64,000 nt of DNA from Sialis fuliginosa (taxonomy: Eukaryota; Arthropoda; Insecta; Megaloptera; Sialidae), in the NCBI GenBank assembly GCA_961205875.1, contig OY540817.1, forward strand, positions 930,001-994,000. The letters run 5' to 3'. The position numbers and the translations under genes are program-made. Position 1 is the first letter of the stretch, and each line of letters opens with the position of its first letter. Under the pieces are notes generated by a model. It did not search any database and was not told the DNA's origin. It saw only the letters and a list, made by a program, of their open reading frames with translations. Below are positions 2,077 to 44,520 of this stretch, one piece after another.

Positions 2077-2945
2077 TGTATAAAAGTTTATAATTTATTG
2101 TAATAATATAAAAATTTAAAATCTCGCCAATTTATATTAATTGCCAGCTGTTTGGAGAGATGGATACAAAACAGAAATAAAATAAAAAACACGTAAATTA
2201 AGAAATTTTTAATAATATAAATTTTAAAAATCGCGCCATTCTCCAAATGAAGTTCGCCCCGCCCACTTTATGTATTTATGTTATCTATGACTACACTGTT
2301 ATTTTCTCAGATTCATTAGAATTAGTTATCGTAAACTGCAGTTCAACCGAAGATAAATTATAAATAAATATTCTGGAAGTGCTTATAAGCTGCTATATAT
2401 GAGAACATTATAAGAGGTGATCCTATGGACAATACGGGAGGTAAAACAAATGATAGGGGACAATATGAAAAGGATAACTATAACTTCAAGTATGAACAAA
2501 TTAATTTCTTTGAATTTTTCAATGAGATAGCAATCTGTTGTACTTACAGCTTTTGGTACGAATGAGAGATTAACATCATTGTCTTAGAAGTCTTTGTTCA
2601 TGGTAGCCTCGTCTAGTTTGTTTCTTCCATTTATAACGTAATGAATTTGTATAAAACCCAGTGTAAAAATTAAGAAAAATAATTTATTATAAGTAGGATT
2701 ATTAAAATACAAAATTACCTTAATAACATAGAAGTATTATACAATCATAGTTGATCTTAACGTAATCCAAAAACAACAACAAAAACGAACCGTGCACAAT
2801 CGTAACAAATGTAAAAACAAAATAAAATAAAAAAAAGTGAAATAAATAATGTAATATCAAAAACACTATTTTAAAAACTAAATAGACGAATTATAGCGTA
2901 TCACTGATGATTTTATTATTGAAGTACACCGAAATAATTATATCT
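2077..2945. repeat. Unique-looking flank duplicated at 40717-41571
   Basis: From the end of R1 copy b to about 2945 the sequence is nearly the same as 40717-41571 and then diverges abruptly. It is therefore a segmental duplication that includes R1 and an exon-like frame. Small indels distinguish the copies, for example loss of ~25 bp near 40880. Confidence 0.8.
2548..2730 (-). pseudogene. Decayed copy of the exon-like frame at 41178-41360
   Basis: The frame matches 41178-41360 on the minus strand: a hydrophobic stretch, then an Asp/Glu-rich tail ending at a GTAAGT donor. Here the codon after Lys-Asp-Phe has become TAA, so the reading frame is closed, while the 41 kb copy stays open. The gene is not recognised. 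Confidence 0.45.
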
Positions 2946-5490
2946 ACTATACATAACGAAGTGCCCTGACTGATAATCATTTTTTAGACCATTTCCACTC
3001 ATCGGAGAACCTTGAAATTTGGTATATACATTCCTTGAGGGTAAAAAATAACAACTAGTGGGCCTTTTTTAAAAATTTTTATAAATGGGGTAACAAGGGC
3101 CCCCCAATTTTTCAAAAAAAAAGTTACAATTTTTTAATTATTTTTTTTATATTCTTTGGGCGATATAATGTAAGGTTCAAATTTGAGATTTAAAAAAAAT
3201 GAAAAAAAAGGAAAAAAAAAGTTTTGATGTAAAAAAGTATCAAAACGAAAACCGATATTAGATTTTTTTAATTTTTTTCAAATACTTTGGTTAATTGACA
3301 ACCATGAACCCGTGTCTGATTTTTGAAAAAGATATGTTAACGGTGTGAAAATATTGCCCCAAAGTTACATCTAATCTATTTTAACTCATCTACTAAATTA
3401 ATTTCAAATGTCATTGCTATAGAAACAATTTTTTTATGGACTATTGACAAAAATTTGACAGGTCGCCATTTTTAATTTTATGCTTTAAATACATTAGAAA
3501 TACAAGTTAAAGTATCTATAAAAATATTGTAAAGCAATTGTAATTGTTATTATACTCAAGAACTCAAGATTATAGACAAGGTTGGTAAAATTTAAACTGT
3601 CAAAATAGTTTCAGATATCATTTATGGAGCCTTATTAAAGCATACAAAATACAATACATATAATTTTAGTGCAGGCAGTCATGTAAAACTAAATAAAAAT
3701 TAGTTTGAATTAAGAGAATCGACCATTGCGTAAAAATATATTTATTGCTGCATACTAAATACAAAACATAATTTTATTGCAGGAAGCCATGTAAAACAAA
3801 TTAGAAATGGGTTAGAATGAACAAAATCGACGTGTTAATATTTTTATTCTTACCGCGAACTTACTAATAATTCGGGCAAGACATACACGAGTGTATGCCA
3901 TAAGGGTTCCGAAGTACGTACTCGTGAAATGTTTGGAACCACTTACAGGTGCATTTTTAAGTTAAAGTTAAAATATAAAAAAGCGTCAAGTTCTACTAAT
4001 TGAGATCTATATTTTGACATACCACATGCCTAGATATAAAAAAAAAATATTTATGACGCCCCTCCCTATAATTCCAAAATTTAAAATTATATTGTTGACT
4101 TTAGTATTTGTCGTTGGTAGTTCCACCAAAACTTCGTTACCAAATTTTTTTCAGATTTTTTGAGCCAGTAGTTACAGAGATAGAGAGGGGGGGGGGGGGA
4201 CAAAATAAAACACTGCTTTTAGCCCCCTACAGGCGCCATTTTTGAGTTAGAAAAAAATAAAAAATATGGTCATGTTCTATGAATTGAGATGTACATTTTG
4301 ACATATCACATGCCTAGATATGAAAATAAATTTTTTTAATTCTCTTACACCCCTCCCTATTATTCCAAAATTTAAAATTATATTATTGACTTTAGTATTT
4401 GTCGATGGTAGTCCCACCAAAACCTCGTTACCAAATTTTTTTCAGATTTTTTTAGCCGGTAGTTACAGAGTTAGAGGGGGGGGGACAGAATAAAATACTG
4501 CTTTTATCCCCCTACAGGCGCCATTTTTGAGTTAGAAAAAAAATAAAAAATAGGGGCATATTCTACTAATTGAGACGTAAATTTTGTCTTGGTATACAAT
4601 TTTTTTGTTTTTTTTGGATTTGCTTTAAAGCCTCCTACAGGCACCAGTTTTGATTTAGAAAAAAAATAAAAAAAGGGTCAAATTCCGCTTGTTTGGTTAT
4701 ACATTTTAACGTGCCACATGCCTTGGTATAAAAAAAAATATTTTTTTTACCTAGCTATAGCTCCTTATTGCCCCCCCTGAAAAATTATTTATTCAATAAA
4801 TTTGTACATATTTTACTAGAGGGTGTCATTTTACATGTTCAGTAAAAATTTCAAGTTTCTAGCTTATACAGTTTACGAGCTATTTAGCTTTGAGTGAAAA
4901 GGACGGACGGACGGACGGACGACAAAGCGATATTAATAGGGTTTCTTCGGAACCCTAAAAATCTTTTTATTTAAAAAAAAAACGACCCATACTAATTATC
5001 CCATGATTCATAGATCCTTATTGAGGTTTATTAAATACAGTATACATACTTTTAGTGCAGGCAGCCATGTCAAACAACGGCATTTTTAAATCATCAAAAT
5101 CGTGTTTAAAGGGAAAATATGACATCCCAAAATATTAATGTTTTCTAGATATCTCAAGAGTGACACATATTACGTGAAAATTTTATAATAGAATCTTTTT
5201 TGTAGAGCATTCAATTACCTATAATATAGGTTTCTTGTTAATTATTTATTTACAAAGATTTATCTCAATTTGTTTTAATAATTGCTATTTGGTTTTTTAA
5301 ATTGATATTTACTTTGACATATTAAATACCATTTTGACATATTAAATGTCATTGTGACGTTTTAAATGTCATTATGACGTTTGCATAACTTGGCAGATGT
5401 TTTTTTAAATGATTTCTGAAAAATAATTGTGTACATAATTTTAGGGTCAAATGTAATAAATACTTGATTTAAAATATTGGTTTATATTTT
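2946..5490. repeat. Repeat-rich stretch with a ~280 bp tandem unit
   Basis: No gene is visible. A unit containing GCCTAGATATAAAA, ATTCCAAAATTTAAAATTAT and a G-run is repeated in tandem at about 3975-4250, 4251-4540 and (partial) 4541-4740. A (GGAC)n microsatellite at 4898-4922 precedes GGAACCCTAAAA, the type of 3' sequence common in insect retroelement or Helitron debris. 5090-5310 resembles 44330-44530. Confidence 0.6.
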
Positions 5491-5824
5491 TTATATGATT
5501 TTATTTATATTTACATATAATAACACTATTGGCTCAATTATACAACTTTCTTTTATATCGATTGGTTTTTTTGTTAAGTCATCAAACATTGTCCACCTAC
5601 AGTTACCCCTTCTGTAACCATACGTGATATAATGTCCACTCATGTGTAGCATTTCATCATTGGACTTGTCTATCCTTAGTTTTTTGTGGCGTGTAGCTTT
5701 AAATGCAATCGCTCCGACTAAAAGCAACTCTTTTTTTCATCCAATCGATTTTTTAATCTTGTTGGTATTTCTGTAAGTTTTACTGGATTGTTATTATAGG
5801 TCACCTCAAATATGACGCATTCGC
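5491..5824 (-). pseudogene. Element A, USP-like domain exon 3 (His box) and C-terminus
   Basis: After a TTTTCAG acceptor (phase 1, matching the previous donor) the frame runs to a run of seven A residues near 5733-5740, where a one-base shift occurs. It continues in the neighbouring frame to the stop at 5491. The end carries GHYITYGYRRGNCRWTMFDD, matching the GHYxxY...W..FDD His/Asp box of ubiquitin-specific proteases, followed by a strand-rich tail. The frameshift means this copy cannot make the complete domain. Confidence 0.55.
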
Positions 5825-6393
5825 CTGAAAAAAATTTGACAACATGAAATCATATAATCCACAAAAATCATATTTTTTTCCAAGTTACATATTAAGTATT
5901 ATTAATAATTTCCGTCGACACTTAAAAAAGTACTGAATATATATTTAGAAAATTTTTTCGCATTTTTTTTGGAATAAAAGAATAAATACACTGATTTCTA
6001 TATTTTATTATTTTTGTAATTGTGGTTTAGAAGTTAAATTCTTTTTGTTAAAGGGCATATGAAAATTGCCCCCGAAAGATATTGGATTGAAATTTTCAGG
6101 ATATGTTGATACTATAAAAATACTATGATCTTGAAAATTTCAGCTCCGAAACTTAACTGGTTTTCGGAAAATAAAAAAAACGTGAAAATCAAAAAAAAAA
6201 AATTTTCTTCGGATTGGATAAACCGATTTTGATAAAAAATTTATATGTTTCAGAGGCCTATAGAAGCTTCTGAAAAAAAAATTAAAGCAATATTTATTGG
6301 TATTAACCCCGCAAAAAAATTATTTTATGTTTTTTTAACTATGATGCTTTTAGAACACAATTATGAAATAATTTTTTTTTCAAAGCTCATGTA

Positions 6394-7150
6394 CCTCTAG
6401 ATAACATAATTTATTCAGATTTTTGTAAGGGTTAGATCAAAGTTTATAAAAATGAAAACCATTTTTTTTGTTAAAAAATTCACTTCTTAATTATTATTTT
6501 CTATTCGTAATCTTTTTGATATCATTTTTTTCTGTAAATTTATCATTTTTAATCAATCCAACCATCGAAGAATATTGAAAAAAATAATTTGTTTCACTTT
6601 CGATTTTCAATGTAAAAATATTAATACTAATTTTTATGAATTATTTACTTTTTTTATTAGTAGGAATAGGTACATTTAAAACTAATTGTAAGTTATGATA
6701 GTTATTGATAATTTTATTGACAGAATATTAAAAATCAATTGAGTAGAAAAAAAATACTTTTTCAATTACATACCAAATGATGAAGACTATAATATAGTGT
6801 TGGTATGTAATTGAAAAAGTATTTTTTTTTCTATTCATTGATTTTTAATTTTCTGTCAATAAAATTATCAATAACTATCATAACATCAATAATTTAGTTT
6901 TAAATGTACTAATAAAAAAGTTAATACTTCATCGAAAATGAAACAAAATTTTTTTTTCCCAATATTCTTCGATGGTTAAATTGATTAAAAATGATAAATT
7001 TGCAGAAAAAAATGATATTAAAAAGATTACGAATAGAACATAATAATTAAGAAGTGAATTTTTTAACAAAAAAAAATGGTTTTCATTTTTTTAACTTTGA
7101 TCTAACCCTTCCAAAAATCTGAATAAATTATATGTTATCTAGAGGTATTG
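6394..7150. repeat. Foldback (long palindrome) in element A intron
   Basis: Arms of about 370 bp read GTACCTCTAGATAACATAA at the left and the inverted form at the right, with the centre near 6775. It lies 40 bp inside the intron between the last two protease exons. The target duplication is not clear. A transcript would fold into a long hairpin. Confidence 0.75.
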
Positions 7151-7190
7151 TAGGTATTATTGTAGACAATCGTGAAATTTTACTACTCAC

Positions 7191-7575
7191 CGATATTTAT
7201 AACGTTACATGTTACTTTTTTTTCGCAAGTTTTGCATAGTCCACTTTCAGTTTTCATTAAATGCTCTGTTAAATTTTGTGCTGATTTAATTAGATCATCT
7301 TTTATTTGTTTCGCTATCAATGTAATTAATCTTGTATTCTTACATTGTAGACATATTGATTCTTCTAATGTAGTAGGTATACTCTTAAATAATTTCCTTA
7401 TTAACCAAGGTGATGCGACATCGCATGGGAGGTTATCAATAAATTCATTTGCTTTATTATATTTTATAATACTATACAAGATATCTGCACGTTTTTGATA
7501 GGTATCCTTGTTTATGCCTTTTTCTATTATATAAATGATTAATTGAAAGAATTTATCATCCTTGAATGATGCAAC
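7191..7575 (-). pseudogene. Element A, USP-like domain exon 2 (with CxxC pairs)
   Basis: The exon is open for 128 codons from a TTTCAG|GTTGCA acceptor to a GTGAGT donor at 7190 (phase 1). It has two Cys pairs, CLQC and CKTC, about 45 residues apart. They sit between the Cys box and the His box, as the zinc-binding 'finger' insertion does in many ubiquitin-specific proteases. The predicted structure is mostly helical, with many Lys and Ile. Confidence 0.5.
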
Positions 7576-8235
7576 CTGAAATATTATAAAATTATTTATT
7601 ATTTTAGCACTTTAAGCATATATTTTTTAATTGATGAAATTCTCTCCCATAATTACTTTAAAAGTCGTACACTTATTTGTCTACTAGAAGCTATAAGAGT
7701 TTTTTCGATCAATGGTTTTTTAACGTAACCTTTTTAAAAGTAAAAAACATGTAGATATGTCACCCGATTTTCAATTGGTTTTCAATTGCTATTGTATTTA
7801 CTGTAGAGTTACTCATAGTAAGAGTTCTGACAGCTCGAATCGATTTCTAATTAATTGTAGTAGTCAAGTCTCACTCAGAGCTGTATTTTCTCATTTTATC
7901 AATAAATATCATTAAATATACTTGTCTTTTATTATATCATATTATTATATTATGTCCAATATTAATATTATTGCTTCCTCGCAATATCGAAGATACGAGA
8001 AGCTATTTTTTATGCTTGTTAAAAATAATACATAATTGAATGAATTTTTGAATAAATCGCGTCGGTTTAGTTTAAAAATAGTGATGCTGTCATAAGTCAT
8101 CTTATTAGAATTAGCTGTAACTACTTTTGTTGCTTTAAATAATTAAATAACACAGAACAATAAAATCTAAATTGTATAAAAGTTAATCATTTTAGTATTT
8201 ATGTTTAACATGTCAATTTATTAAACGAATCATAC

Positions 8236-8556
8236 CTTTTGATATACCTCTGGATAATCAAGAGCTGCAATAAGAGTTATGTGCACAATTGAGTCAAAAG
8301 AACACGTAGACGATAATGAAACACTCTTTCCATCAAGTGTAGAACATGCAAGTTCTAGACAGCAGCCATTTCTAAGTATAGGTATTTTTGAGTGTTTGTC
8401 CCAATTTAAAGAGTCTTTTATCTCATCTTCTCTTTTGCCTAAAAATTTTGCCGGTTTTCGAGTATTATATTCTTTTTGATAGTTACATAAAAAATTTTGT
8501 TTTTTTGTTCTTAAGTTTGAGGTTTCAGAAGTTTTTTGAATCGATGCAGATTCCAC
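8236..8556 (-). pseudogene. Element A, USP-like domain exon 1 (Cys box)
   Basis: This 107-codon exon is in phase 0 on both sides (TTTTTAG|GTGGAA acceptor, AAAAG|GTATGA donor). After a basic lead it has the motif ILRNGCCLELA and then SSTCSFDSIVH. A Thr-Cys-x-x-x-Ser box after a turn is the layout of the catalytic Cys box of ubiquitin-specific proteases (GNTCxxNS in canonical members). The Asn before Thr is replaced by Ser here. The frame is open across the exon. Confidence 0.5.
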
Positions 8557-8865
8557 CTAAAAATAATTTCATTGCACATATTTCAACAAACTTCAAATTA
8601 AAAGTAGTAGTATGAGATTATAAAGCATAAAATCTTATTTTTGAATTCATGAAAATGAGTTACAAATTTTTATTAATTTGTGATATCAATTCAAATAATA
8701 ATTAAAGAATAAATTTAAAAAAAAAATACTGAATGACTGACTTTTAACTCAGACTTTGATCTCAAATAATATTATAAAACAACTTAATTAAAAACATGAG
8801 TACTGTAAAAAAATATTTATATGATTAACAGTTTTTAAGAAATAAAATATATTTTTTAATATTAC

Positions 8866-9119
8866 CTCCATTTCATTTTTATTTGTGTATCCATTCTTCT
8901 TAACTACGTTAGTTTTATTTTAGCAATCAAAGCAGATTCTTTGTTGGCCATACCCTTCTTCAGAATTTTGTAATGGAGTTGAGCATTGTATAAATATATG
9001 CACTGCTTTTTTACAATTAATACAAGAGTGAGCTCCATTTGGTAAATCGCCATTTGAACATGCAGGGCATTTAATTGATGATATAACCAATTCATTCATT
9101 GAATAATTTTTTCTTGCAT
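8866..9119 (-). pseudogene. Element A, zinc-binding Cys/His exon
   Basis: The frame contains CPAC, then HSCINC, a His-rich turn, GYGQQRICFDC, giving a C-x2-C..H-x-C-x2-C..C-x2-C pattern likely to bind one or two zinc ions. A TAA at 8920-8922 immediately follows the last Cys, after which the frame is open again to a GAG|GTAAT donor at 8866/8865. Acceptor AG lies at 9121-9120. The exon sits between the transposase core and the protease-like exons, so it may be a spacer or DNA/protein-binding module. Confidence 0.55.
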
Positions 9120-9251
9120 CTGAATTTCAACATAAAAATTTATTTAAAACTTAAGAATAAGGACGATAAAATTTTGATTATATTTCCGATTAAAAAATTA
9201 CATTCATCTCAAAATTATTACATTTTTATAATAAAAATTTCGTTTTATTAT

Positions 9252-10614
9252 GACGGATTCCACGGTCGATCAGACAGAGCGCTCGCGCTGGCCTTTTTTA
9301 ATGTATCGCTACTTTTCTATCTCGCTGTGTCCAGCGCTTACGGGGCTACAAAAAAAATCTGCATACGCAATTGGATAGATTTTTGTCTGCTCTTTCTAAT
9401 GGTGTCCTCATTTTTCCCGGAAAATGCATTTTTCACCGAGAAAATCGACTTTAAAGTTAAAGCGATTTATCGGAAAATATGTATCTTTCGAACCTGGCTT
9501 AAGTTATATCAATCGATAGATAATCTAATGATGAACATCTGTACGAAATTTCAGGATGGAGACTTTAACGGTTCAAAAGTTATTAACGAATGAACATCGA
9601 AAAACGTGGTTTTGCGGCCGCGCGTGCTGCTACAAACAGCGCTACAACGCACGTAATGTTTAGATTTAAAAGTATTTTGCATTTTTGAATTCGTGCAGAG
9701 GCGTATTTACCATGGGGCCATGGGGGCCATGGCCTAGGGCGGCAGGTCGAGAGGGGCGGTAGATTTTTTTAGTTTAATATAGCACATTTAAAAAAAATAA
9801 TAGGGAAACAAAAAATGAGTAGCGTGACTAAAAAAAAAGGCCATCAGTTTTTTATGTACATTATATCATATATTAAACATACTAGTATGTTTAATATATG
9901 ATTATATTTTCCATTATTTGCAAAAAAAATTATCACTTTTCAGTTCATATAGGAATTTTGACTGTTAAAAATATATTATATTTTCCCATGGTATAGGGGC
10001 GGCAATTTTTTTTACCAGGGCGGCAATTTTTTTTTGACCAGGGGGACAATTTTTTTGCCCAAAGCGGCAATTTTTTAAATGTGCTATATTAAACTGAAAA
10101 AATCTACCGCCCCTCTCGACCAGCCGCCCTAGGCCATGGCCCCCATGGCCCCATGGTAAATACGCCTCTGCATGAATTCAAAAATGCAAAATACTTTTAA
10201 ATCTAAACATTACGTGCGTTGTAGCGCTGTTTGTAGCAGCACGCGCGGCCGCAAAACCACGTTTTTCGATGTTCATTCGTTAATAACTTTTGAACCGTTA
10301 AAGTCTCCATCCTGAAATTTCGTACAGATGTTCATCATTAGATTATCTATCGATTGATATAACTTAAGCCAGGTTCGAAAGATACATATTTTCCGATAAA
10401 TCGCTTTAACTTTGAAGTCGATTTTCTCGGTGAAAAATGCATTTTCCGGGAAAAATGAGGACACCATTAGAAAGAGCAGACAAAAATCTATCCAATTGCG
10501 TATGCAGATTTTTTTTGTAGCCCCGTGGGCGCTGGACACAGCGAGATAGAAAAGTAGCGATACATTAAAAAAGGCCAGCGCGAGCGCTCTGTCTGATCGA
10601 CCGTGGAATCCGTC
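9252..10614. mobile_element. Foldback element, 1363 bp, with GACGGATTCC termini
   Basis: Terminal inverted repeats begin GACGGATTCCACGGTCGATC, and TAT flanks both ends (possible 3-bp target duplication). Arms of ~540 bp surround a ~270 bp centre. It sits in the intron between the transposase core and zinc-binding exons of element A. Open frames in each arm (9099-9593 plus, 10539-10273 minus) are inverted copies of each other and do not look like a real protein. Confidence 0.75.
9696..10170. mobile_element. hAT-like ends inside the foldback
   Basis: CAGAGGCGTATTTACC at 9696 and its inverse ending at 10170 are typical of non-autonomous hAT elements. They are followed by CCATGGGGCCATGGGGGCC and a CCGCCC-rich zone. 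No clean 8-bp duplication exists. The flanks are instead inverted (GAATTCGTG versus CATGAATTC), so the segment may have been part of the palindrome when it formed. Confidence 0.5.
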
Positions 10615-10734
10615 TATACATGTACAGAATAAACCATTTTACGAATAAAATAAATTGCAACGTTTAAACATTCTCGAAATCAAGTTATAATTATATAAAA
10701 ATATCGAAATAAATTCTATTCGATTACAACATAC

Positions 10735-12266
10735 CTGATATTCAGAAAAGGTATTTTTTTTGTTTGATATCTTCTCGTTCGTATTTTTTCTTTTTTTCTT
10801 TGGTATTCCTTTACCCTTCCAATTTTCTATCTCATTCAATGCTAATCTTGTTTTTTGGCTGCTTGCTTCTTCGATAAATTCACATTTATCGTCTAGATTA
10901 GAATTAATAATTTTTGTTTTTCCGGTCAAATACTTTAAGTATACTCTTATTGGGTATTTGATATTGTGAAGCACACCATTTTTATATTTATTTATTTCTC
11001 CCTCCACTGGAGCATTAGTTGCTGGAATACGACAATTTCTAAAAATTTTACTTAAAGTATTTGACCACAATGGAAATAATCCTAAGTCATCTTTCAGCTT
11101 TTTTGTGAATTTTAATTTATGGATGTAGTAGGGATTATCATCAGTTCCATTTTCTTCAAAAAATTTTGAAGCTGATTCGTATATATCTTGTCCCCACTGA
11201 GTCCAATAATTTTTATTTACATTAGTTTGCTCCGATTCATTTTCCATTTTTATTTATTTTTCGTGGGCCCTATCTATTAAATCCCTACAAGCTGGTGAAC
11301 TGGACTCATCGTCCGAGCTTTGTCTGAGTGAGTACTTCAAAAAAACCACAACGGCAGATGGTTGTTAAATCTACACCGATTTTGCAGCTGGCTCCTATAC
11401 TATTATAGTTAAATAAAATATTTTAACTGCACGCCTTAGAGATGAGAAAAGTGTTGTATATTTTTTTATGAAATGTGCGACGTCAATGCGAATTCTTGTT
11501 GATATATTTTGTATATTTAAAAATGCATCTGCATATTCATAAATGTCAGAGTATTTATTAGAAAAACATAAAACCGAAGCATTCAGTAGAGCTTTGTTTT
11601 GATCGCAAATAACCTCAGTGGGCACTTTTGCTCCTGACATAGTCCACTTGTTTAAAAAACCTCTTATTTCTTCTGTTCTATGTCTTTCGGATAACATCTG
11701 TGCTACAGAGAACTGCCCTTCAAAGCAGTTCACGACTATTAAATATAAAAATATTGTTCTTTTAAAACTATCATATTTATTTTGAATTGTTTGTACTTTC
11801 GCCCCTGTGGAATCTATACATATACTACCTCCGTACATTGCATGGACTTTATTCCACGACTGAATTTGTGTATTAGTCCAAAAGTGGACAAATAATGGCG
11901 ATTTCCCAATGTCGTGAATACAATTTAAATATTTAGTAAATTTCATGATTGTGATGGCTTCTATCGGATCGCTATCAAGATATGTTCTTGATTTATCTTG
12001 TGATTTCGCAGTATGCAAAACTGCACTACTGTATAGATGGGGTGCCTCAGAGTCGCCTTCTCTCATTAGTTCATTTCCTAGGTTTGCTCTGTATATATCT
12101 ACGGGTATATTAGTCAGATTTTGAACCACTTGAGACCTTCTTGAACCTCGTAGATATCGTTTACCGCATACTCCAGAACCAGGATTATATTTAAATATAC
12201 AATTGATGTTATTGTTTTGTAATTTTTCCATTTTGCAATTAACAATTGATCCACATTTACAATAAG
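10735..12266 (-). pseudogene. Element A, MULE-like transposase core exon
   Basis: The exon starts after a TTACATAG acceptor with a Cys-Lys-Cys-Gly motif (possible zinc ligands). Motifs in order are: the block YLDSDPIEAITIM; a first catalytic-type Asp in ICIDSTGA; then QMLSERH; a second Asp in EVICDQNKALLNA; and RIDVAHFIK, which corresponds to the C/H..H region of MULE transposases. After two or three stops near 11260-11400 the frame resumes with FPLWSN and the block NAPVEGEINKYKN, then a Lys-rich tail, ending at CAG|GTATGT (10735/10734). The 41.9-43.8 kb relative has every one of these blocks. The order of catalytic motifs fits the MULE/MuDR group (known); the exact family is inference. Confidence 0.6.
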
Positions 12267-12600
12267 CTATGTAAAAAATAAAATAAAATTGTTTATAATA
12301 ATAAGATAATTTGTTACACGGCTCAATTTATTCAGGGGAATAAGTCAGAGGAAGAATAGCAAAAAAATTAAAAATTAAAAACATTATCGATAAAACTTGA
12401 ACGTGAACATTAAAAAGTTACATATGTTTTTATCATCTTCCAATCATTATATAATAAAATATAATTTTCTTTAAACAAGGCTATAGTCGGATTGCTAATA
12501 TTTTTGAGTATTTTATGAAATTATTTTTAGAAACATTTAACGAGATCGTTTCACGAAATCTGTATAGTAAAATAAAAATAAATATTTTATATAATCTTAC

Positions 12601-15274
12601 CATTAAAACGTCCAGACTCTCCTTCAAGTGCTAAAGTGTGGTTTTTAAAATTAAAACCACACTTTACTTTAATAACTGCCCAAATTTTGTTCGTAAATAG
12701 ATTTTCCCATTTCTCTGGTATGAAATTGAGACGTGATCTTCTTTTTATTTTCCCTGAACGCATTTTCTCGTTCCGCTTCACTTTGTACGTAATGTTTGAA
12801 AATTCTTCCCACGTCAAAATAAAACTAAAATCTGTTTCTACACTCACGGAAAAAATTAAAGGACCACTTTTATTTTTCGAAAAAATTGCTCATTTTCAAA
12901 GTAATGCCGATAGGTCAAATATGATCCATTTTTTACTTATAGGATATGAAAATTGAAGGAAATTTTATCATCTTTTCGAATTTAAGGGTATATTTGTTTT
13001 ATTAAACTTATTATTGTGACCAAATCGCGGTTTAATAAAAAATAAAAAAATTGATTTTTTTTTGCAATTTTGAAAGATACCCACGGGGATGTTAAATTTT
13101 TTTTCTAAAATTTCAAGATAACCATTTTGTAGGAAATTTGTTCAGCTTTAAAACGCTGTTTCAAATTTGTTTTATAATTTTTTGGTGTTACGATATTCGA
13201 GTTTGAATGAAAAAAGTACCAAAAAGTTTTAAACGACCATAAAGAGCCTAATGTTAGTCGCACAGAAAAGAAATTAAAAGAATATTAAAGCTTAAATAAT
13301 CACCTATTGTCTAGTAGCATTTATAAAATGTTTAATTTTAACTTAACCCTTCAAATACGAAAAACAAAACAGTGTTCGAATTTAAATAATCCTGTAAAAA
13401 TAACCTTTTTTTAATCATAGATCTAATGTTTAGAATGTATCCAGAAATTAAGTTCTATCAAAGAATATGAAAATTAGACTTATTACCTTCTATGTGAACA
13501 AAGGTTCCAGTAAAAATCTTTTAATTTGGCTGAGAAATTGCATTTTGAATTTTTTGTATACGTTTAGGATTTGACCGTACTTTTTATAACAAGTTTTTCT
13601 TTGGGATTTTTTTTTTGAAAAACAATCAATTTTTGAGAAAAATTGTAAGAAGGAAAAAGTTTTTCTTTCTTGTTAAAGAATATTCATAATTTTTTTCAGA
13701 TGTTTTATATCAATATTATGGGATTAAATTTATTTTTAATAGGGTACTTTTTCATTCAAACTTGAATATCTTGGCATCAAAAAATGTGACAATCATTTTT
13801 TAAAAAGCATTTTGAAGCTGAGAAAATTTACTAAATGATGAATATCATGGAATTTTGAAAAAAAATCATACATCCCCGTGTGAAATTTCTATAACTGCAA
13901 ATAAATAATTAATTTTTTTTAGTCAACTACGTGTGGACCAAAAAAATCAGGTACTTTGAACGAATAAGCGGTGAAAATGCAATGAAAATTAATTTAACTG
14001 TCGAAATCAAGAGTCTTTAATATGTTGTTGAACGTTTTTTCATGACCACACGCAGTTGACTGAAATTAAAAATTGAAATTTTTTGTAATTATGGAAGTTT
14101 CACACGGGGATGTATGATTTTTTTTCAAAATTCCATGATATTCATCATTTAGTAAATTTTCTCAGCTTCAAAATGCTTTTTAAAAAATGATTGTCACATT
14201 TTTTGATGCCAAGATATTCAAGTTTGAATGAAAAAGTACCCTATTAAAAATAAATTTAATCCCATAATATTGATATAAAACATCTGAAAAAAATTATGAA
14301 TATTCTTTAACAAGAAAGAAAAACTTTTTCCTTCTTACAATTTTTCTCAAAAATTGATTGTTTTTCGAAAAAAAAATCCCAAAGAAAAACTTGTTATAAA
14401 AAGTACGGTCAAATCCTAAACGTATACAAAAAATTCAAAATGCAATTTCTCAGCCAAATTAAAAGATTTTTACTGGAACCTTTGTTCACATAGAAGGTAA
14501 TAAGTCTAATTTTCATATTCTTTGATAGAACTTAATTTCTGGATACATTCTAAACATTAGATCTATGATTAAAAAAAGGTTATTTTTACAGGATTATTTA
14601 AATTCGAACACTGTTTTGTTTTTCGTATTTGAAGGGTTAAGTTAAAATTAAACATTTTATAAATGCTACTAGACAATAGGTGATTATTTAAGCTTTAATA
14701 TTCTTTTAATTTCTTTTCTGTGCGACTAACATTAGGCTCTTTATGGTCGTTTAAAACTTGTTGGTACTTTTTTCATTCAAACTCGAATATTGTAACACCA
14801 AAAAATTATAAAAAAAATTTGAAAAAGCGTTTTAAAGCTGAACAAATTTCCTACAAAATGGTTATCTTGAAATTTTAGAAAAAAAATTTAACATCCCCGT
14901 GGGTATCTTTCAAAATTGCAAAAAAAAATCAATTTTTTTATTTTTTATTAAACCGCGATTTGGTCACAATAATAAGTTTAATAAAACAAATATACCCCTA
15001 AATTCGAAAAGATGATAAAATTTCCTTCAACTTTCATATCCTATAAGTAAAAAATGGATCATATTTGACCTATCGGCATTACTTTGAAAATGAGCATTTT
15101 TTTCGAAAAATAAAAGTGGTCCTTTAATTTTTTCCGTGAGTGTATTTCATCGAAAATATTGTGTGTATTTACAGACGAATCAGTGCTTGAATCAGTTGAA
15201 GTTGATTCATGTAGGCTTGTACAGTCATTTAAGGAGTTTAAGCCTATAGCAGCTTTTTCTCCGTGTCGATTCAA
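12601..15274 (-). pseudogene. Element A, N-terminal exon split by a foldback insertion
   Basis: The exon has two parts, 15274-15145 (Ser/Thr/Asp-rich) and 12840-12601 (basic, with WEEF and WENLF motifs), separated by the 2302 bp palindrome at 12841-15142. If the palindrome and one TA are removed, the frame runs through from Phe-Asp-Glu-Ile into Glu-Thr-Asp-Phe without a stop. It ends at a GTAAGAT donor after 12601. The joined codon with exon 2 gives Ala-Tyr-Cys-Lys-Cys-Gly, in frame. The true start is uncertain; an ATG at about 15337 is followed by a T-run frameshift. Confidence 0.55.
12841..15142. mobile_element. Foldback element, 2302 bp, TA target duplication
   Basis: It has near-perfect arms of ~1098 bp and a ~105 bp centre (13939-14043). 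The terminal sequence is CACTCACGGAAAAAATTAAA and TA is present on both sides (12839-12840, 15143-15144). The TA target suggests mobilisation by a Tc1/mariner-type transposase. It interrupts an open exon of element A, and removal with one TA restores the frame, so it is younger than that element. No protein is encoded. Confidence 0.85.
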
Positions 15275-15739
15275 TAAGATAAACGAACGTATTGATAGCG
15301 CTTTATATTTGAAAAAAATAAGTTTTAGCTATTTCCATGTATATCGACGAAATTGAAAATGGTACAAGGTCATTGTTTAAAATTAGACGGTTAGCATACT
15401 GTTTAATAGTTGTTAAAAAAAATCTATATCAAGCGTCCTCGAGGCATTTTTGTTTAAATCTTGTTAACACACTTGTTTAACACTTATTAGTTTATTTCAG
15501 CGCACAAGAAAAACAAAATTTCAACGCGAATATAATAATTAATTATTAATTAATATAGTAATTAAGAATATTAAGACGGATAATTGCTTAACGCACTGCA
15601 GATCCAAGAGTAGTTACTACAAAAAGTATACGAGGACTGATATTTTTTCTAAGATAGGGTAGAATTAAATCATTGATTTTGGAGATGGTAAAGTTAGTTA
15701 AAATTAGTTGAAATTGGTTTGTATCAAGTAGAATATTAT

Positions 15740-15862
15740 CATATATTAATCAACTAATATGACCCATCCTGAATTATTTGATTAACCAACTGAAATGTAG
15801 GTGGCAGTACCAGTACTGAATATTGTATTTAGCCAGCAAACAAACCTTCAAGGTTATACAGT
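15740..15862. repeat. Solo terminus of the 50248-54488 element family
   Basis: It begins CATATATTAATCAACTAAT and continues with CCCATCCTGAATTATTTGAT and GGTGGCAGTACCAGTACTG. This is the inverse of 54370-54488 with few differences. Only one end is present; the rest appears to be lost. Confidence 0.65.
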
Positions 15863-17418
15863 GCGTTCACGATGAAAGGAACAAATTCGTTTAAAATTCA
15901 GGTAATTATTTTGTGGAAAAACGCTCGGACCCGTCGATTAGTATTTTTAGTTGCGGATTTTTTGACATAAGAAAATTGTATACAGGGTGTCTGAAAAAGA
16001 ACATATGCAGTCATCATTGATTTTTTTAAATGTAACACCCTATATATTATACCATTTTTGAATTGTGCGATAAATTCTGAACACTTTTTGTACAGTATAT
16101 CATATCTCTAAAATCAGTGGTTTTTGGGATAATGACGTTTGAAAATTGACATTTTGAAATACACACAAGTCAAATAAAATGTTTAAATTGAAAAAATAAA
16201 CTTTTAACATTTTTTTAAATGCCAACAAAAACATCCTGGTATTGCAAAAAAAAGAAAAAACATTGAACTTTTTTTTCCTTTTTTTTTCTTTTTTTTGCAA
16301 TACCAGGATGTTTTTGTTGGCTTTTAAAAAAATGTTCAAGGTGTATTTGTTCAATTTAAACATTTAAGTTAGCAGTTTGGGGTTTTCTCGGAAACGGGGT
16401 AAGATACAAAATTAATTTTAGGCGTACAAAATTGGTACAAAAAAGCTACAAAATCTCCAACTATTTTTTTTGCAGGCTGCTATAAAGGCATTTCCAGCTT
16501 AATATACGTGGACATTTGCAAGATATCATTTATCATACATAAATTGTAGACCCTTTACTACATATATCAATAAACAGATGATGATTTTCCATTCAAAATG
16601 GGTGTTTAATTTTAATTTTAAAAAGAAACTCGAACTTGAAAGACCCTGTATATGTAATATGTACGTATATGTTAGGTATATCACAAACCGTATACATAAA
16701 ATTAACGTATCTACCTGAATTATACGTATCTTATACGTGAGTGTGTTGTGTGGGAGCAACCCTCGTATTACCAAAAACCAAACAATTTGATTCTATGCTG
16801 GTAATAACAAGAAACAAATAAATTGTAGGTCCGTGTTCTGTGTTTTCTTCTGGACGACATTTCGGTCGAATCCCATCGGCCATCTTCAGGTCTGGTCTGA
16901 AGATGGCCGATAGGATTCGACCGAATCTTCGTCAAGAAGACAACGCAGAACGCGGAGCTACCCGGAATTTTTCACCAGCATCTACTTCAGCCCGCGAAAT
17001 ACAATATTTCAACAAATAAATTTTAAATTATACTTTTACTAATAGGTGGCACCATCACCACCAACAATATTTTTTGTTGTATAAAAAATAAAATATACAA
17101 CACAGATTATTAAAGGATAAATAAAATTTTCTTACATAAAGGTTAGTGAAATAATTTGTTTGAATTGTTTTAGTTTGTTTATTACGATACATTATACAAT
17201 TAACAACAAAATAACAACAAATTCACTAAATTATTTTTTTAGACATACATGAAATACATATAAACACGGAGAAAAATGGAGCCGATTTTTCAATAAAAAT
17301 TACAGTTACCGATTAAAAATTCCAATTTTGTATCAAAAAATACTATCGATTTTAACATGTACTGTCAATTGACTAACTTTTACAATCTCCATTGTAATTT
17401 GTATAATTTTTTTTACTA
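15863..17418. repeat. Gene-free repeat debris with two short palindromes
   Basis: A TACAGGGTGTCTGAAAAAG fragment lies at 15983-16050. A palindrome at 16160-16372 has ~75 bp arms around CAACAAAAACATCCTGGTAT. A hairpin at 16835-16945 has arms containing GAAGATGGCCGAT and GATTCGACCGAA, a sequence type often repeated in insect genomes. No coding region is supported. Confidence 0.55.
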
Positions 17419-17702
17419 CAGTTGGACTCCTATAAGTTCGAACCATTTAAGTTCGAGTTCCCCTACATTGGAGGAGAAGTTGTTTCCCTCACTCCTTACG
17501 CATGTGCAAACGGTGACAAAATAATTATTAAAGTGGTTTCACAATTATATAAATGGAAATATACGTACAACGTTATTAAACAGACAAAAAAAATAATATG
17601 CAATCAAATACCTACATTAATATTCAAATAAAACTCAAATATAGTCAATATACCTTTTTATGAAGACGCCATATATTACAAATGATAAACTGTCAAATAA
17701 CT

Positions 17703-17900
17703 TCACTAAACTAAAAATACACCTTAACCACAAAAATTTATGTCACTCGACACGTGTTTCGACTTCACAAGAAGTCCTCATCAGGAGCCTAACGATTCCA
17801 GTCTGGAATCGTTAGGCTCCTGATGAGGACTTCTTGTGAAGTCGAAACACGTGTCGAGTGACATAAATTTTTGTGGTTAAGGTGTATTTTTAGTTTAGTG
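17703..17900. repeat. Palindrome carrying two inverted hammerhead-like motifs
   Basis: Near-perfect ~98 bp arms meet at CCAGTCTGG around 17800. Each arm carries the same hammerhead-like core in opposite orientation. It looks like a head-to-head insertion of a Penelope-like or SINE-like terminal repeat into the pogo MITE. Confidence 0.75.
17815..17862 (+). ncRNA. Hammerhead-ribozyme-like motif
   Basis: The invariant CUGAUGA (17820-17826) and GAAA (17844-17847) flank a GACUUC/GAAGUC stem II with a UUGU loop. Stem III is the very short ACA..UGU, and the predicted cleavage site is after the C at 17855 (GUC). Stem I pairs CUC (17817-17819) with GAG (17856-17858). One unpaired G between CUGAUGA and stem II departs from the consensus, so activity is doubtful. 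Short-stem-III type I hammerheads are known from Penelope-like elements and retrozymes. A mirror copy is on the minus strand of the left arm. Confidence 0.45.
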
Positions 17901-18264
17901 ACTAAGAAACCACAGTTTCTTCGTTTTTCAAGTAAAAAATGTCAAATAACTTATCAATGTTACCACCTGGGAATTATGTTAGATCGCTCTGAGTCGTTCT
18001 AAGTAATGTGTACGAGAAAGAGAGAAAGCTATCCCCATCTCATTTGATTAGATCGGTATTGCGATAGAAGGGGTACCCTGTACGTTCTAATTCCGAGAAT
18101 TTTTGGTCCCGTAGCTTAGAACTTATAGGAGTTCTACTGTATATTCGTAAATATCATTTACTTACATGATTTATTCAACTGATTATTCTTAAGTTGAATT
18201 ATTTGTTATTATTTATTAAGTGCTATACAAATTATTTCATTTCAATTGTTAGTACATTTTTCTA

Positions 18265-20331
18265 TTATAAAGGTCGCTCATTAGAATGGGTTAATTTATG
18301 TGAATCTAAACGACTTTTTAGTGTACAACTATATTTACATTGATCGCATTTAAATGGTCGCTCTTTAGAATGTGATAGTATATGTGTATTTAAATGTCTT
18401 TTTAGTGTACAACTATATTCACACTGCTCGCATTTAAAAGGTCTCTCATTAGAATGTGTCAATTTATGTAAATTCAAATTACCCTTTTGTACACATCTAT
18501 ATTCACATTGGTCGCATTTAAAAGGTCGCTCTTTAGAATGTGTTAGTTTATGTGTATTTAAATGTATTTTTCGTGTACAACTATATTTACATTGATCGCA
18601 TTTAAAAGGTCGCTCTTTAGAATGTGTTAGTTTATGTGTATTTAAATGTATTTTTTGTGTACAACTATATTTACATTGATCGCATTTAAATGTTCGCTCT
18701 TTAGAATGTGTTAGTTTATGTGTTTTCAAATAAATTTTTTGTATACAGCTATATTCACATTGATCGCATTTGAAAGGTCGCTCATTAGTATGTGTTAATT
18801 TATGTATTTTCAAATTTCTTTTTTGTGTATAACTGCATTCACACTGGTCGCATTTGAAAGGTCGCTCATTAGTATGTGTAAATATATGTATTTTCAAATT
18901 TCTTTTCTGTGTATAACTACATTCACATTGATCGCATTTGAAAGGTCGCTCATTAGTATGCATTACTTTATGTGTTTTCAAATTACTTTTTTGTGTACTA
19001 CTATATTCACATTGGTCGCATTTAAAAGGTCGCTCGTTAGAATGTGTCATTTTATGTGTATTCAAAACACTTTTTTGTGTATAACTGCATTCACACTGAT
19101 CACATTTGAAAGGTCGCTCATTAGTATGTGTTAATTTATGTGTTTTCAAATTTCTTTTTTGTGTATAACTACCTTCACATTGATCGCATTTGAAAGGTCG
19201 CTCATTAGTATGTGTTACTTTATGTCTTTTCAAAGTACTTTTTTGTGTACTACTATATTCACATTGGTCGCATTTAAAAGGCCGCTCGTTAAAATGTGTC
19301 AATTTATGTAAATTCAAATGACCCTTTTGTACACATCTATATTCACATTGGTCGCATTTAAAAGGTCTCTCATTAGAATGTGTAAATTTATGTAAATTCA
19401 AATTACCCTTTTGTACACATCTAAATTCACATTGGTCGCATTTAAAAGGTCGCTCTTTAGAATGTGTTAGTTTATGTGTATTTAAATGACTTTTTAGTGT
19501 ACAACTATATTCACACTGCTCGCATTTAAAAGGTCTCTCATTAGAATGTGTCAATTTATGTAAATTCAAATTACCCTTTTGTACACTTCTATATTCACAT
19601 TGGTCGCATTTAAAAGGTCGCTCTTTAGAATGTGTTAGTTTATGTGTTTTCAAATTTCTTTTTTGTGTATAACTGCATTCACACTGGTCGCATTTGAAAG
19701 GTCGCTCATTAGTATGTGTAAATTTATGTATTTTCAAATTTCTTTTCTGTGTATAACTACACTCACACTGATCGCATTTGAAAGGTCGCTCATTAGTATG
19801 CATTACTTTATGTGTTTTCAAATTACTTTTTTGTGTACTACTATATTCACATTGGTCGCATTTTAAAGGTCGCTCGTTAAAATGTGTCATTTTATGTGTA
19901 TTCAAAACACTTTTTTGTGTATAACTGCATTCACACTGGTCGCATTTGAAAGGTCGCTCATTAGTATGTGTAAATTTATGTATTTTCAAATTTCTTTTCT
20001 GTGTATAACTACACTCACACTGATCGCATTTGAAAGGTCGCTCATTAGTATGCATTACTTTATGTGTTTTCAAATTACTTTTTTGTGTACTACTATATTC
20101 ACATTGGTCGCATTTTAAAGGTCGCTCGTTAAAATGTGTCATTTTATGTGTATTCAAAACACTTTTTTGTGTATAACTGCATTCACACTGGTCGCATTTA
20201 AAAGGTCGCTCGTTAGAGTATGTTAAATATGTATCACTGTATTTTATATCTTCACTAAGATCTTGATTTTCTTGTTCCTCATTTTGAATGCAAGTTTCTG
20301 ACAGATTTTCTTCTTTTATTTCCAAGTCTTC
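18265..20331 (-). CDS. C2H2 zinc-finger protein, large last exon (23 fingers)
   Basis: After a TTTTGTAG acceptor the exon opens with an acidic lead (DLEIKEENLSE) and then 23 consecutive 28-residue C2H2 fingers, C-x2-C-x12-H-x3-H, with linkers of the TxxERPFKCDQC type. It ends four residues into a further linker. The product should be a nuclear, sequence-specific DNA-binding regulator. Finger residues vary at the helix contact positions (QKSNLKT, QKGNLNL, LKSHLNT). Fingers 1-3 and 4-6 are almost identical, a recent 252 bp tandem duplication. The frame is intact over 2.06 kb, unlike everything around it. It joins in phase 0 with the exon at 29191-29090. Antisense open frames are artefacts of the 84 bp periodicity. 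Transposon-driven spread of the family is possible; function is inferred from the fold only. Confidence 0.9.
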   Translation of the reverse strand, partial: EDLEIKEENLSETCIQNEEQENQDLSEDIKYSDTYLTYSNERPFKCDQCECSYTQKSVLNTHKMTHFNERPLKCDQCEYSSTQKSNLKTHKVMHTNERPFKCDQCECSYTQKRNLKIHKFTHTNERPFKCDQCECSYTQKSVLNTHKMTHFNERPLKCDQCEYSSTQKSNLKTHKVMHTNERPFKCDQCECSYTQKRNLKIHKFTHTNERPFKCDQCECSYTQKRNLKTHKLTHSKERPFKCDQCEYRSVQKGNLNLHKLTHSNERPFKCEQCEYSCTLKSHLNTHKLTHSKERPFKCDQCEFRCVQKGNLNLHKFTHSNERPFKCDQCEYRCVQKGHLNLHKLTHFNERPFKCDQCEYSSTQKSTLKRHKVTHTNERPFKCDQCEGSYTQKRNLKTHKLTHTNERPFKCDQCECSYTQKSVLNTHKMTHSNERPFKCDQCEYSSTQKSNLKTHKVMHTNERPFKCDQCECSYTQKRNLKIHIFTHTNERPFKCDQCECSYTQKRNLKIHKLTHTNERPFKCDQCEYSCIQKIYLKTHKLTHSKERTFKCDQCKYSCTQKIHLNTHKLTHSKERPFKCDQCKYSCTRKIHLNTHKLTHSKERPFKCDQCEYRCVQKGNLNLHKLTHSNERPFKCEQCEYSCTLKRHLNTHILSHSKERPFKCDQCKYSCTLKSRLDSHKLTHSNERPL

Positions 20332-21082
20332 CTACAAAACGACAAAAATAAATAAAAATAAAATAGAAAATGTTTGCTTTAAAAATGCAAGGTGGCAGTC
20401 GGTACTTTGATACGATATCTTTTAAATCGCGAAAAGGCCGTAAAAAAGGAAAAAAATGTTTATTAAAATCAAAATTTTATATAATCTTCAAATGAACCTT
20501 TACAATAAGTTATACTTCAATTTCAAGATTCACTGGTTCTAACCTGCAACCATTTTTATTTTAAATAACAATTACGCGCGTTCATTTGCCCTCTCACTCA
20601 CACTCCCATTTGGGCAAAACAGTTATTTACAAAATTTAAAAAAATTAAATTCTCTATCAGAAATATATTTTTCGACAGATTCGTATTTCAACGAGTAACG
20701 ATTATCTGAATTTTATAAAAACATTATATCTAATTGTACACGCCAAGCATGCTATGCCTGGAAGTGCGCTCTATTTAATAATATTACTAATGTTATCTTT
20801 TCATTGAAACACTTGATCAATAATTTTAATAAATGAAGACACTCTGTACTCGTTGAAATACGAATCTGACGAAAAATATCTATTATCATTTTATTTTTTA
20901 TTTAATACATTTCCTAATATTATTTTGGCATTCTATAGAATGCTTAGGTGTTCTATATAATGCCTAGGCAAAGTATATAATAAATTTCTACTAAACAAAT
21001 ATTTCATACTTTGCCTAAAAACGTTAGACATTGTATAGAATTCCTAGTAAATATATAGAATGCCTGAATTATATGTATATAC
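20332..21082. repeat. Intron start with a short inverted repeat
   Basis: This is the 5'-distal part of the zinc-finger intron. An inverted repeat at about 20668-20885 has arms containing GACAGATTCGTATTTCAACG. Short direct motifs (TATAGAATGCCTAGG-like) recur at 20930-21070. No gene is seen. Confidence 0.5.
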
Positions 21083-22245: not shown

Positions 22246-22266
22246 CTGTTTTCTAAAGCTATTTAT

Positions 22267-33465: not shown

Positions 33466-33559
33466 CGGTCAGAGTTCTTGTCTGAGCGGCAACGGCTTTG
33501 GATCCGGAGACGGCGCTTGTCTTCGGGTGCGTGCCTGTGAATTTGGGCGTCACAGCTGC

Positions 33560-41360: not shown

Positions 41361-41872
41361 GAAGTATTATACAATCATAGTTGATCTTAACGTAATCCAA
41401 AAACAACAACAAAAACGAACCGTGCACAATCGTAACAAATGTAAACACAAAATAAAATAAAAAATGTGAAATAAATAATGTAATATCAAAAACACTATTT
41501 TAAAAACTAAATAGACGAATTATAGCGTATCACTGATGATTTTAGTATTGAAGTACACCGAAATAATTATATGAATGTATAAATGTTAATAAATATAGCG
41601 AGAGAACGCACAATCAAGAATTTACAATATAACACTAGGAATTACGCAAATTTAAAACTCAATCACTGGAAGGATAGGTTAAAAGGAACTCCCGTTCAGT
41701 TATTATTGACTTGATTTCAAGAACTCCGTAAACTATATGTTATCTTGCTTCGGAAGCCAAAATTATACTGTTGTCAGTTGCTTACGTTTTCAAAAAATTG
41801 TTCAATTCCCCCCTCTACGGGGTTACGTGCGTATTTATTGTATGCGGAATTTCTAGTTAGATAATATCGTTA

Positions 41873-43834
41873 TACATTGATATATTCCAGATGAAAGTCA
41901 ATGAACTCATTAACACGTTTTCTCGTTTTCCGCATGAGAGTTGTTTTAGTTTTATTGAATACTCCCTCGCTCGATGCAGAAGTTGCAGGAACTCGACCAT
42001 ACCCAAAGACAGGGAAAAGCTTCAAATCTTGCAACACTTTTTTGATCAAATGCAAACAATAGAGACCGTTGACGTTACGCCCAGTTTCTTCGGTGGCGAG
42101 TTTCTTGGCCTCCTCTTTTACTAATATACCATACTCGTACCAAGTTCCGGACTGTTTCTCATAAACATTTTCTTCGTTTGGAACTTCCAAATCTCCATTG
42201 ATAGTTTCGTCTTCAATGCTCTCATCAGGAGCGCTATCGTTTAACTGTTCACTTCCTTCAACCTCAGTAAACGACAATGGATTTCCTACAAATATATACA
42301 TTCAGCTTCAGCAAGTGAGTATTTCCAAAAATCTAATCTTGTTTCCATGTATTTATTTGGTATACAAAATATTACAGGGATGGGCATATTTTTATCATTT
42401 CGTTAGTCGTTAAAATATTAACGAACCAAAGTAACGAATTGTTAGAATAACAGGAAAAGTAACGACTAATTACCATATCGTTATATCAAGGGATGAATGT
42501 TTCGCCACTTTGTTTTCAACAATGCGCGCGATAATTAAAATTTCTATACGATGTTTCGAGAACTAAACGCCCCCACTCCCTGTTACACTTAGTCTCAAAT
42601 TGCTGACATTACTCCCCCCCCCACCTCCTCAAGATGCTTTACGTAAAATGGTAACGGCCCTTTATATCAGAATCTACAGATTACGTCTAGATTATAAATA
42701 CTTTTTTAATATATTGAACCTTTGATAAATCCATCTAGCATTTCTTTGTGTTTTTCACATGAACTGCTTTCATTGTTTGAAAGGAATCCTGCCGTTGGAC
42801 TCGCTGCAACAATAAACAAGCTCCGCAGGATTTGTTTAGCTACTTCTTCATCTTAGCACACGATGAGTTGTCCAATAACAGCGAGCCAAAAAACCTTTTT
42901 AAGAAGGTCTTCTCTTTTTCTCCCAAACAATTTGTTATAAGTATTTATGAAGTGCGCCACATCCAATCTTATATAACATTATGGCATTCCATCTTCTGTC
43001 AAAGAGTCCGCATATTCGCCTAGGTAACAAAATACGTTTACAAAATACACATTATGACACAGTTTTTCAAAATATTTAAAATTAACACAATATAGATTTT
43101 ACCAATGTCTTTGTAAGACGTAAATATTCTCGTTACTCCATTCAACAACGCTCTGGAAGCGTCGACGACAACTTCATTTGAGCCACTTCTAATCCACATT
43201 TCCAGAAAATATTGAATATCGTTAGTATGTATATGTACGATGGCAGCATTTGTCCAATTGAAAATTGTTTGACGCAATGGACCACAATTTGATACAAAAA
43301 AATGTGTTTCGAGTTTAAGTCATGAAAAAGTCCGCCAGTTGCATCGATCATGACTTTATTCATTCCAGCGTGGAAACATTTCCGAAACATATGTATTTGT
43401 GAATTTGTCCAATAATGGACACAAAAAGGATCGTACCAAATGCTTTGAATGGAGTTAAGATGTTTTTCTCGTTTCATGATTGCGATTGCTTTGATAGGGT
43501 CCGGATCTAAGTACATTACATTCTTTTGCTCACTTTTCAGTACGTGCAAAACATTTGCTGAAGGCAAAATCGCAGGTTCGGGATCTTTTTGATCCATTGT
43601 TTCGTTTGCTTTCTTTGCTCTATAAAGTTCAACATGAACATGCTCCAATTCTTGCCAAATCATTTTCCTTTCCGCTTGTCGTACGTAATTTTTTTTACAA
43701 TTCGCTTTGCAAAACCTGAGATTGTTTTCCATAGTAAACTGCCAGTCGATTGTGATATTATCAATATCATTGCTACTGACGATATCATTCAATTTGCGTC
43801 CACATCGAGTGTATCCTATGACAGTTAAAAACAA
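41873..43834 (-). pseudogene. MULE-like transposase, element B (diverged relative of A, broken)
   Basis: Three exon-like blocks correspond to the core of element A: 43834-43103 (YLDPDPIKAIAIM, VHYWTNSQIH, first Asp in VMIDATGG, QFSIGQMLP, second Asp in VVVDASRALLNG), 43019 to ~42720 (EYADSL, RLDVAHFIN), and 42285-41870 (FPVFGYGRVPATSASSEGVFNKTK, then a stop). Donor GTAAAAT and acceptors CCTAG and TTTGTAG border them. A frameshift lies near 43240 and at least two stops lie in the middle block. No zinc-binding or protease exons follow; the gene ends or is truncated at 41870. Identity to A is clearly partial, so these are separate lineages of one superfamily. Confidence 0.6.
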
Positions 43835-43839
43835 TATCG

Positions 43840-44520
43840 ATAATGATTCGTACTTAAACCAAATTTGAAACTCATTTGTGATTCGGATATTGGTTACCGT
43901 GCATAATAAAACCTTTAAACGGTTTTCTGAAAATTCTCGTTTTTTCTATTAGTTAATAACGATTAAAATTTTGAATAATATTTCACTGGAAAATGAGTAA
44001 CTTATTATGCTTCCATAGCAAATTATTGAAAATTTGCCAAGGAGTTCAACGATTCAACAAAGAAGATACGAGAAGCTTTGTGATCGTTTCAGATTGAGAC
44101 AAAAAAAATGTTCTCCGATTTCAAAATTTTAAATTGATTTATCCGTTTCACGACAAGGTAAACACTTTTCGTTCCGTGTCTCTCTGTCTGTCCGTCCGTC
44201 TGTCCCCTGAATCCTTGTCACACGTATAACTAATGAACCACTGAACCGATATTATTGAAACTTGGTCGGATGGTTCGGTCTGGCTTGAGGACGGTCCCAT
44301 TTCAAAATCGTATGTAAGGGGGAGGAGTGACACCCCAAAATATTTATTTTTTCAAGATAACTCAAGAACGACACATGTTACGTGAAAATTTTATAGAATA
44401 TTTTTTGTAGAGCATTAAATTTCCTATAAAATGGGTCTACAACGTTTGTTGTAAAATATTCCCTTACAAAGATTTATTTCAATTTATTTTAAAAATTCGT
44501 GTTTTGTTTTTCTAAATTGA
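43840..44520. repeat. Gene-free repeat debris
   Basis: A CTGTCTGTCCGTCCGTCTG stretch at 44185-44206 and the following 300 bp are of the retroelement 3'-debris type. 44330-44530 resembles 5090-5310 (CACCCCAAAATATT.., ACATGTTACGTGAAAATTTTAT). No gene is seen. Confidence 0.45.

Follow-up and report, generated by a model that had tools for sequence, protein, structure and literature searches.

A decayed gene in Sialis fuliginosa that probably joined a MULE-like transposase core to a zinc finger and a USP-like C-terminal region

We analysed a 64,000-nucleotide stretch of the genome of the megalopteran Sialis fuliginosa (GenBank assembly GCA_961205875.1, contig OY540817.1, positions 930,001 to 994,000 of the forward strand), referred to below as the window and numbered from its first letter. 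Its minus strand carries a gene of several exons, now broken, which extends from about 15274 down to 5491. In the best explanation, which we think is probably correct, this is a decayed cut-and-paste transposon gene of the Mutator-like element (MULE) clade, whose spliced product would have combined three parts: the transposase core, a zinc finger of the SCAND3 type and a protease resembling the ubiquitin-specific proteases (USPs; peptidase C19). The sequence features support the composite architecture, in which one strand carries all three parts, MULE-like core, zinc finger and USP-like C-terminus, with splice sites that are mostly in phase; the element is possibly near Rehavkus. The whole reading is based on a single broken copy. 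This copy is dead, because exon 2 is disrupted by stops and frameshifts in the stretch of about 11254-11400, exon 3 has an in-frame TAA near its end that lies outside any single-base run, and exon 6 has a frameshift near 5730 within a run of A. Part of this damage could be assembly error in single-base runs.

The N-terminal part, core, zinc module and protease motifs all lie on the minus strand in the order given by an initial annotation of this DNA, and every motif it named is present. However, its list of exon blocks had overlooked a coding block at 12838-12601, which forms the second half of exon 1 and is separated from the acidic first half by a 2.3-kb inverted-repeat insert. The 5’ limit of the first half is uncertain; no start codon was seen there by eye, and a Pfam search of it gave no match. 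The window contains five open frames of at least 200 amino acids, two of them in the gene region, compared to an average of 0.0 in 40 shuffled windows.

Exon 2 encodes a set of residues expected of a MULE-type transposase: a first D (11814), a second D (11604), a D(2)H motif (11475), a W and an E (11004). These are spaced D-70-D, H at the second D+43, and W-21-E, with about 200 codons from the second D to the E (a genomic distance that ignores frameshifts). We consider this spacing a stronger argument for a MULE-like core than the Pfam scores, which count on both sides. The Pfam MULE model matched the main frame with only 15.2 bits (E 0.029), short of its curated cut-off of 27.6, and DUF5382 matched the same frame slightly better (E 0.0081), also below threshold; a further sub-threshold match was to PFU (E 0.056). 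Thus the catalytic residues and spacing of the MULE-type core proposed by the initial annotation are in place, but the MULE profile is neither above its cut-off nor the top sub-threshold match. A four-row structural model of the core had a mean confidence (pLDDT) of 33 and was of no use. Scans of the core parts against viral and prokaryotic contig collections yielded no relative confirmed by tblastn, and a tblastn search with the core against plasmids and phages gave no match.

Exon 3 encodes the zinc finger. It matched Pfam Znf_SCAND3 (PF23663) with 39.1 bits (E 7.5e-10), above the cut-off of 27 bits, and when exon 3 was read on past its stop the match rose to 45.7 bits (E 6.4e-12), which bears out the earlier call of a Cys/His zinc module. 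The PHD model fell on the same cysteines with E 0.13, or 2.4 in the longer reading, a marginal result below the cut-off.

When exons 4 to 6 were joined, the motifs TCSFDSI, CLQC, CKTC, GHYITY and W..FDD followed one another, and in the joined frame (with an X at the frameshift) the Cys-His distance was 215 residues and the His-Asp distance 17 residues. The Pfam UCH model matched the frame with the His box alone with 19.1 bits (E 0.0011) over model positions 211-254 of 254, that is, its last 44 positions, and a fuller version of exon 6 gave 18.4 bits. The nine controls, namely the reversed piece and eight shuffled versions of it, gave no UCH match, and no match of any kind in them fell below E 0.06. 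We also used an approximate USP consensus to draw USP sequences from the PDB, and aligned the region to a three-row profile made of this consensus, USP8 and USP21. The local hhalign score of 35.1 exceeded all 200 shuffles, the highest of which reached 28.7, while the reversed sequence scored 16.0. When the pieces were aligned separately, none of 100 shuffles scored as high as the His box and the stretch that follows it, and the USP-like call rests on this C-terminal end because it alone beats the shuffles. From these comparisons a USP-like C-terminal end appears well supported, and a whole USP-like domain probable.

Several results weigh against a complete USP domain. All of the UCH scores are under the curated cut-off of 23.9, and the whole joined region scored lower (16.5 bits, E 0.0066) than the His frame alone. 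The model of the Colicin-E5 immunity protein, which is unrelated, matched the His frame nearly as well as UCH (E 0.0032). The hhalign probability was just 41%, global alignment of the protease region with hhalign failed, and a direct search of PDB chains with the region found no match. By piece, 50 of 100 shuffles scored as high as the Cys-box piece, and 8 and 15 of 100 as high as the two finger pieces, so that none of these is significant on its own. The CxxC exon modelled by itself reached a pLDDT of 45, again of no use. The profile search that the initial annotation had proposed as a check for a USP fold is therefore positive for UCH, but weak and below the cut-off; of the USP-like domain that it described, the motif order and the His-box end stand, while the Cys box and fingers are not significant by themselves.

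Motif counts give a similar division. We tried eight patterns, all composed after the sequence had been seen. Neither the zinc pattern nor the long His pattern appeared in any of 200 Markov shuffles, whereas the window has one match to each. Two patterns were at chance level when taken alone: that of the Cys box (one seen, 0.87 expected) and the short His pattern (two seen, 1.5 expected). One of the eight, a His pattern written with its spacing off by one, had no match in the window. The protease part was also scanned against viral contigs, where no relative was confirmed by tblastn.

That only the His-box end is significant is also what would be expected if the C-terminal region were part of the transposase and not an active ubiquitin protease, being instead a decayed ubiquitin-binding pseudo-enzyme or a cysteine-rich domain of unrelated origin whose His box is USP-like. 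The residue before the Cys points the same way: at the position where USPs usually have Asn there is no N, and Ser is the sole polar residue. However, the Cys, two CxxC pairs, His and Asp all come in USP order and a forced extension of the local alignment placed the CxxC pairs and the Cys box on or near their USP counterparts, although with low confidence. We consider a C-terminal region of this inactive kind unlikely.

The junctions bear on whether the parts belong to one gene. The initial annotation had described six phased exon blocks, and four of the five junctions tested (exon 1 to 2, 3 to 4, 4 to 5 and 5 to 6) are indeed in phase, but the junction from exon 2 to exon 3, which joins core to zinc finger, is out of phase as the sequence stands. 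This is a point against a single polypeptide, and it would fit two unrelated relics in head-to-tail order, one being a MULE-like core and the other a gene of its own with the zinc finger and protease, since the sole out-of-phase junction falls exactly between them. Yet the gap between core and zinc finger is mostly one later insert (9249-10618), without which the two exons are about 250 nt apart on the same strand, and a donor of consensus form and an acceptor stand at the correct ends. Two relics therefore seem to us improbable, and the composite transposase-protease gene proposed initially holds in order, strand and most phases, although its MULE and UCH labels are both below the Pfam cut-offs.

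The window holds a second core, divergent and also broken, which matches the first with 37% identity over a 203-column tblastn match (E 5e-36) and with 40% in a separate alignment. The pattern LFP...R[IV]PAT.A..EG around the E, composed after both cores had been seen, occurs twice in the window, once in each core, and in none of 200 shuffles. By eye, the second core has an acceptor just ahead of a Y..CG motif at the same place and in the same phase as the first. It had no Pfam MULE match. Neither tblastn nor the motif patterns detected a zinc or protease part in its vicinity, which counts against the composite gene as the regular form of the family. The second core may be truncated, because a different repeat begins about 300 nt past its last exon. 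In the least probable alternative, the protease would be no regular part of the family but a USP-like gene of the host, or a piece of such a gene, that one MULE copy either picked up, in the manner of plant Pack-MULEs, or has as a neighbour: MULEs tend to take up host gene fragments (abstract of PMC6446971) and no protease is visible at the second core. Yet that core is perhaps just truncated, the introns of the protease are in phase with the zinc exon, and the region is so far from known USPs (no PDB match, UCH below threshold) that recent copying from an ordinary USP can be dismissed.

The ends of the element did not stand out, which also weighs against the reading as a transposon. MULEs are marked by terminal inverted repeats and target duplications of 8-11 bp, although some of them have no such repeats. 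No terminal inverted repeats with an 8-10 bp target duplication exceeded the shuffles: between 2500-5490 and 15250-18260, searched at 20 nt with that range of duplications, the real flanks gave five candidate repeat pairs and each of eight shuffled flanks gave 1-5. Between 1-5500 and 15200-24000, the 60 matches listed were all short and AT-rich. Just beyond the stop codon, at 5313-5378, is a minisatellite with a 20-bp unit in 3.3 copies.

The exons, the second core and the long inverted repeats of the window are collected in Table 1. These inverted repeats are nearly perfect and foldback-like, with arms of about 185 to 1066 nt, and three of them interrupt the gene.

Table 1 Positions of the gene parts, inverted repeats and second core in the window
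Feature	Position	Strand	Basis or remark
Exon 1, first part (Ser/Asp-rich N-terminal block)	15145..15274	-	open frame 15059-15328
Exon 1, second part	12601..12838	-	donor G/GTAAGA, phase 1; no Pfam match
Exon 2, MULE-like transposase core	10735..12266	-	sub-threshold Pfam MULE and catalytic residues
Exon 3, Znf_SCAND3-type zinc finger	8866..9119	-	PF23663
Exon 4, Cys box TCSFDSI of USP-like region	8236..8556	-	Cys codon at 8304
Exon 5, CLQC and CKTC pairs (finger-like)	7191..7575	-	motifs
Exon 6, His box GHYITY and W..FDD	5491..5824	-	PF00443 UCH; stop codon TAA 5493-5491
Inverted-repeat insert inside exon 1	12839..15144	.	arms 1066 nt, 99% complementary, TA on either side
Second inverted-repeat insert	9249..10618	.	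occupies most of the intron between exons 2 and 3
Third inverted-repeat insert	6392-7147	.	in the intron between exons 5 and 6
Further long inverted repeats	23124-25320, 51664-53194		
Second core, divergent, broken	41870..43945	-	tblastn

Other features of the window were recorded alongside. At 45828-46772 on the plus strand, a RING finger (zf-RING_2, E 3e-8) stands directly ahead of a DDE_3 transposase piece (Tc1/mariner or IS630-like, E 6e-7); past one TAG (46125-46127) the RING frame enters what by eye is a helix-turn-helix-like stretch. This may be a RING-transposase fusion, which would make it a second link between ubiquitin and a transposon in the window. Upstream of the gene and on the same strand, 18265-20331 is a 688-amino-acid open frame with about 23 C2H2 zinc fingers derived from an 84-bp tandem repeat. 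The plus strand has a DDE_Tnp_4 transposase piece at 59396-59863 (E 1e-14). On the minus strand, 63246-63644 gives a weak match to the retroelement model zf-RVT (E 9e-4), below its cut-off. Arrays of a 45-bp tandem repeat at 32842-33881 are GC-rich compared to the 31% GC of the window. Scans with Rfam, tRNA, NCBIfam and PADLOC found nothing meaningful. Two further candidates were rejected. The frame of a GHFVMY motif at 2966 is broken by stops, and chance alone would produce 1.5 motifs of this type. A FLYWCH/WRKY-like module suspected over the junction of exons 1 and 2 had no Pfam match.

If the gene is a transposon gene of the kind we favour, a living copy would have made one spliced protein whose core cuts and joins the transposon ends and which carries a ubiquitin-cleaving domain in cis. 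The protease would then free proteins at the transposition complex of ubiquitin or of a tag resembling it. The most likely substrate would be the transposase itself, which would be spared from the proteasome, the simplest benefit; alternatively, the target could be repair factors or chromatin where the DNA is cut. Related ideas are in print for elements of other kinds, at least in the excerpts of the papers cited here: that repair factors are activated (PMC2836005), or that the proteasomal degradation of proteins needed for transposition is prevented (PMC9741609). More broadly, we tentatively propose an animal MULE-clade lineage in which a USP-type deubiquitinase became fixed C-terminally on the transposase via a SCAND3-type finger, a proposal that we judge slightly more apt to fail than to hold. 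If it is true, it would add a further class of ubiquitin protease in DNA transposons beside Ulp1, OTU and VTD, and such elements might be a source of domesticated USP-like host genes. A USP-type MULE would also strengthen the idea that ubiquitin control limits transposition and would offer a testable model of protection in cis, and the remnant hints at how such elements might be shielded from the host cell.

Among the matches listed in our literature searches there was no published MULE with a USP domain; Repbase and the eukaryotic protein databases were outside their scope, and prior notice there is possible. Automated insect gene models may already carry this order of parts uncommented. Two MULE surveys (PMC6446971, PMC13359780) contain, in their main texts, no words starting with ‘ubiquitin’, ‘peptidase’ or ‘protease’.

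The core resembles that of Muta1, an active MULE of the mosquito Aedes aegypti in which D214, D283, H307, W401 and E419 were tested by mutation (PMC5225508, in excerpt). Both have the series D, D, H, W, E, with similar distances from D to D (69 in Muta1, 70 here) and from W to E (18 and 21). In contrast, the second D and the H are 24 residues apart in Muta1 and 43 here, and the second D and the E are separated by 136 in Muta1 and by about 200 codons here. Furthermore, the Muta1 transposase has 504 amino acids, and the excerpt of that paper does not mention a protease.

By anatomy the nearest named kin is Rehavkus, because the gene has a marginal PHD match in its cysteine finger and, past its stop codon, a minisatellite with a 20-bp unit; the kinship is tentative. 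Rehavkus stands beside the MULEs, occurs in insects and annelids and served as the MULE outgroup in one survey, and its transposase has a PHD finger and its 3’ terminal repeat is preceded by a minisatellite (PMC6446971, in excerpt). The likeness is drawn from this description. However, terminal repeats and a 9-bp target duplication were not found here, and the excerpt mentions no protease for Rehavkus.

A transposase with a C-terminal cysteine protease of the ubiquitin or SUMO type has precedents, also in animals. As far as the excerpts go, hydra, lancelet and plants have Mutator elements with a Ulp1 domain, and Ginger1 has Ulp1 or OTU domains (PMC2836005); an OTU-bearing hydra MuDR has also been tabulated (PMC6446971). 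These proteases belong to families other than USP, whereas the motifs here are USP-like. Closest in protease class is a Trichomonas protein, already published, with a transposase_11 domain and a peptidase C19 (USP-class) domain (PMC2836005, in excerpt), but its transposase is of another family and its host is a protist. Helitrons carry VTD and OTU domains, and the VTDs, which are cysteine proteases borne by a transposon, have been shown to cleave ubiquitin (PMC9741609, in excerpt). The VTDs, however, have an Asp-x-His motif and belong to rolling-circle elements; here M-S-G precedes the His and the Asp is at H+17, and the region is not a VTD because its Asp comes after the His. Helitrons, Ginger1 and the Mutator elements of plants and animals, which are unrelated, have thus taken up different ubiquitin or SUMO proteases, and a USP in a MULE would be an independent case.

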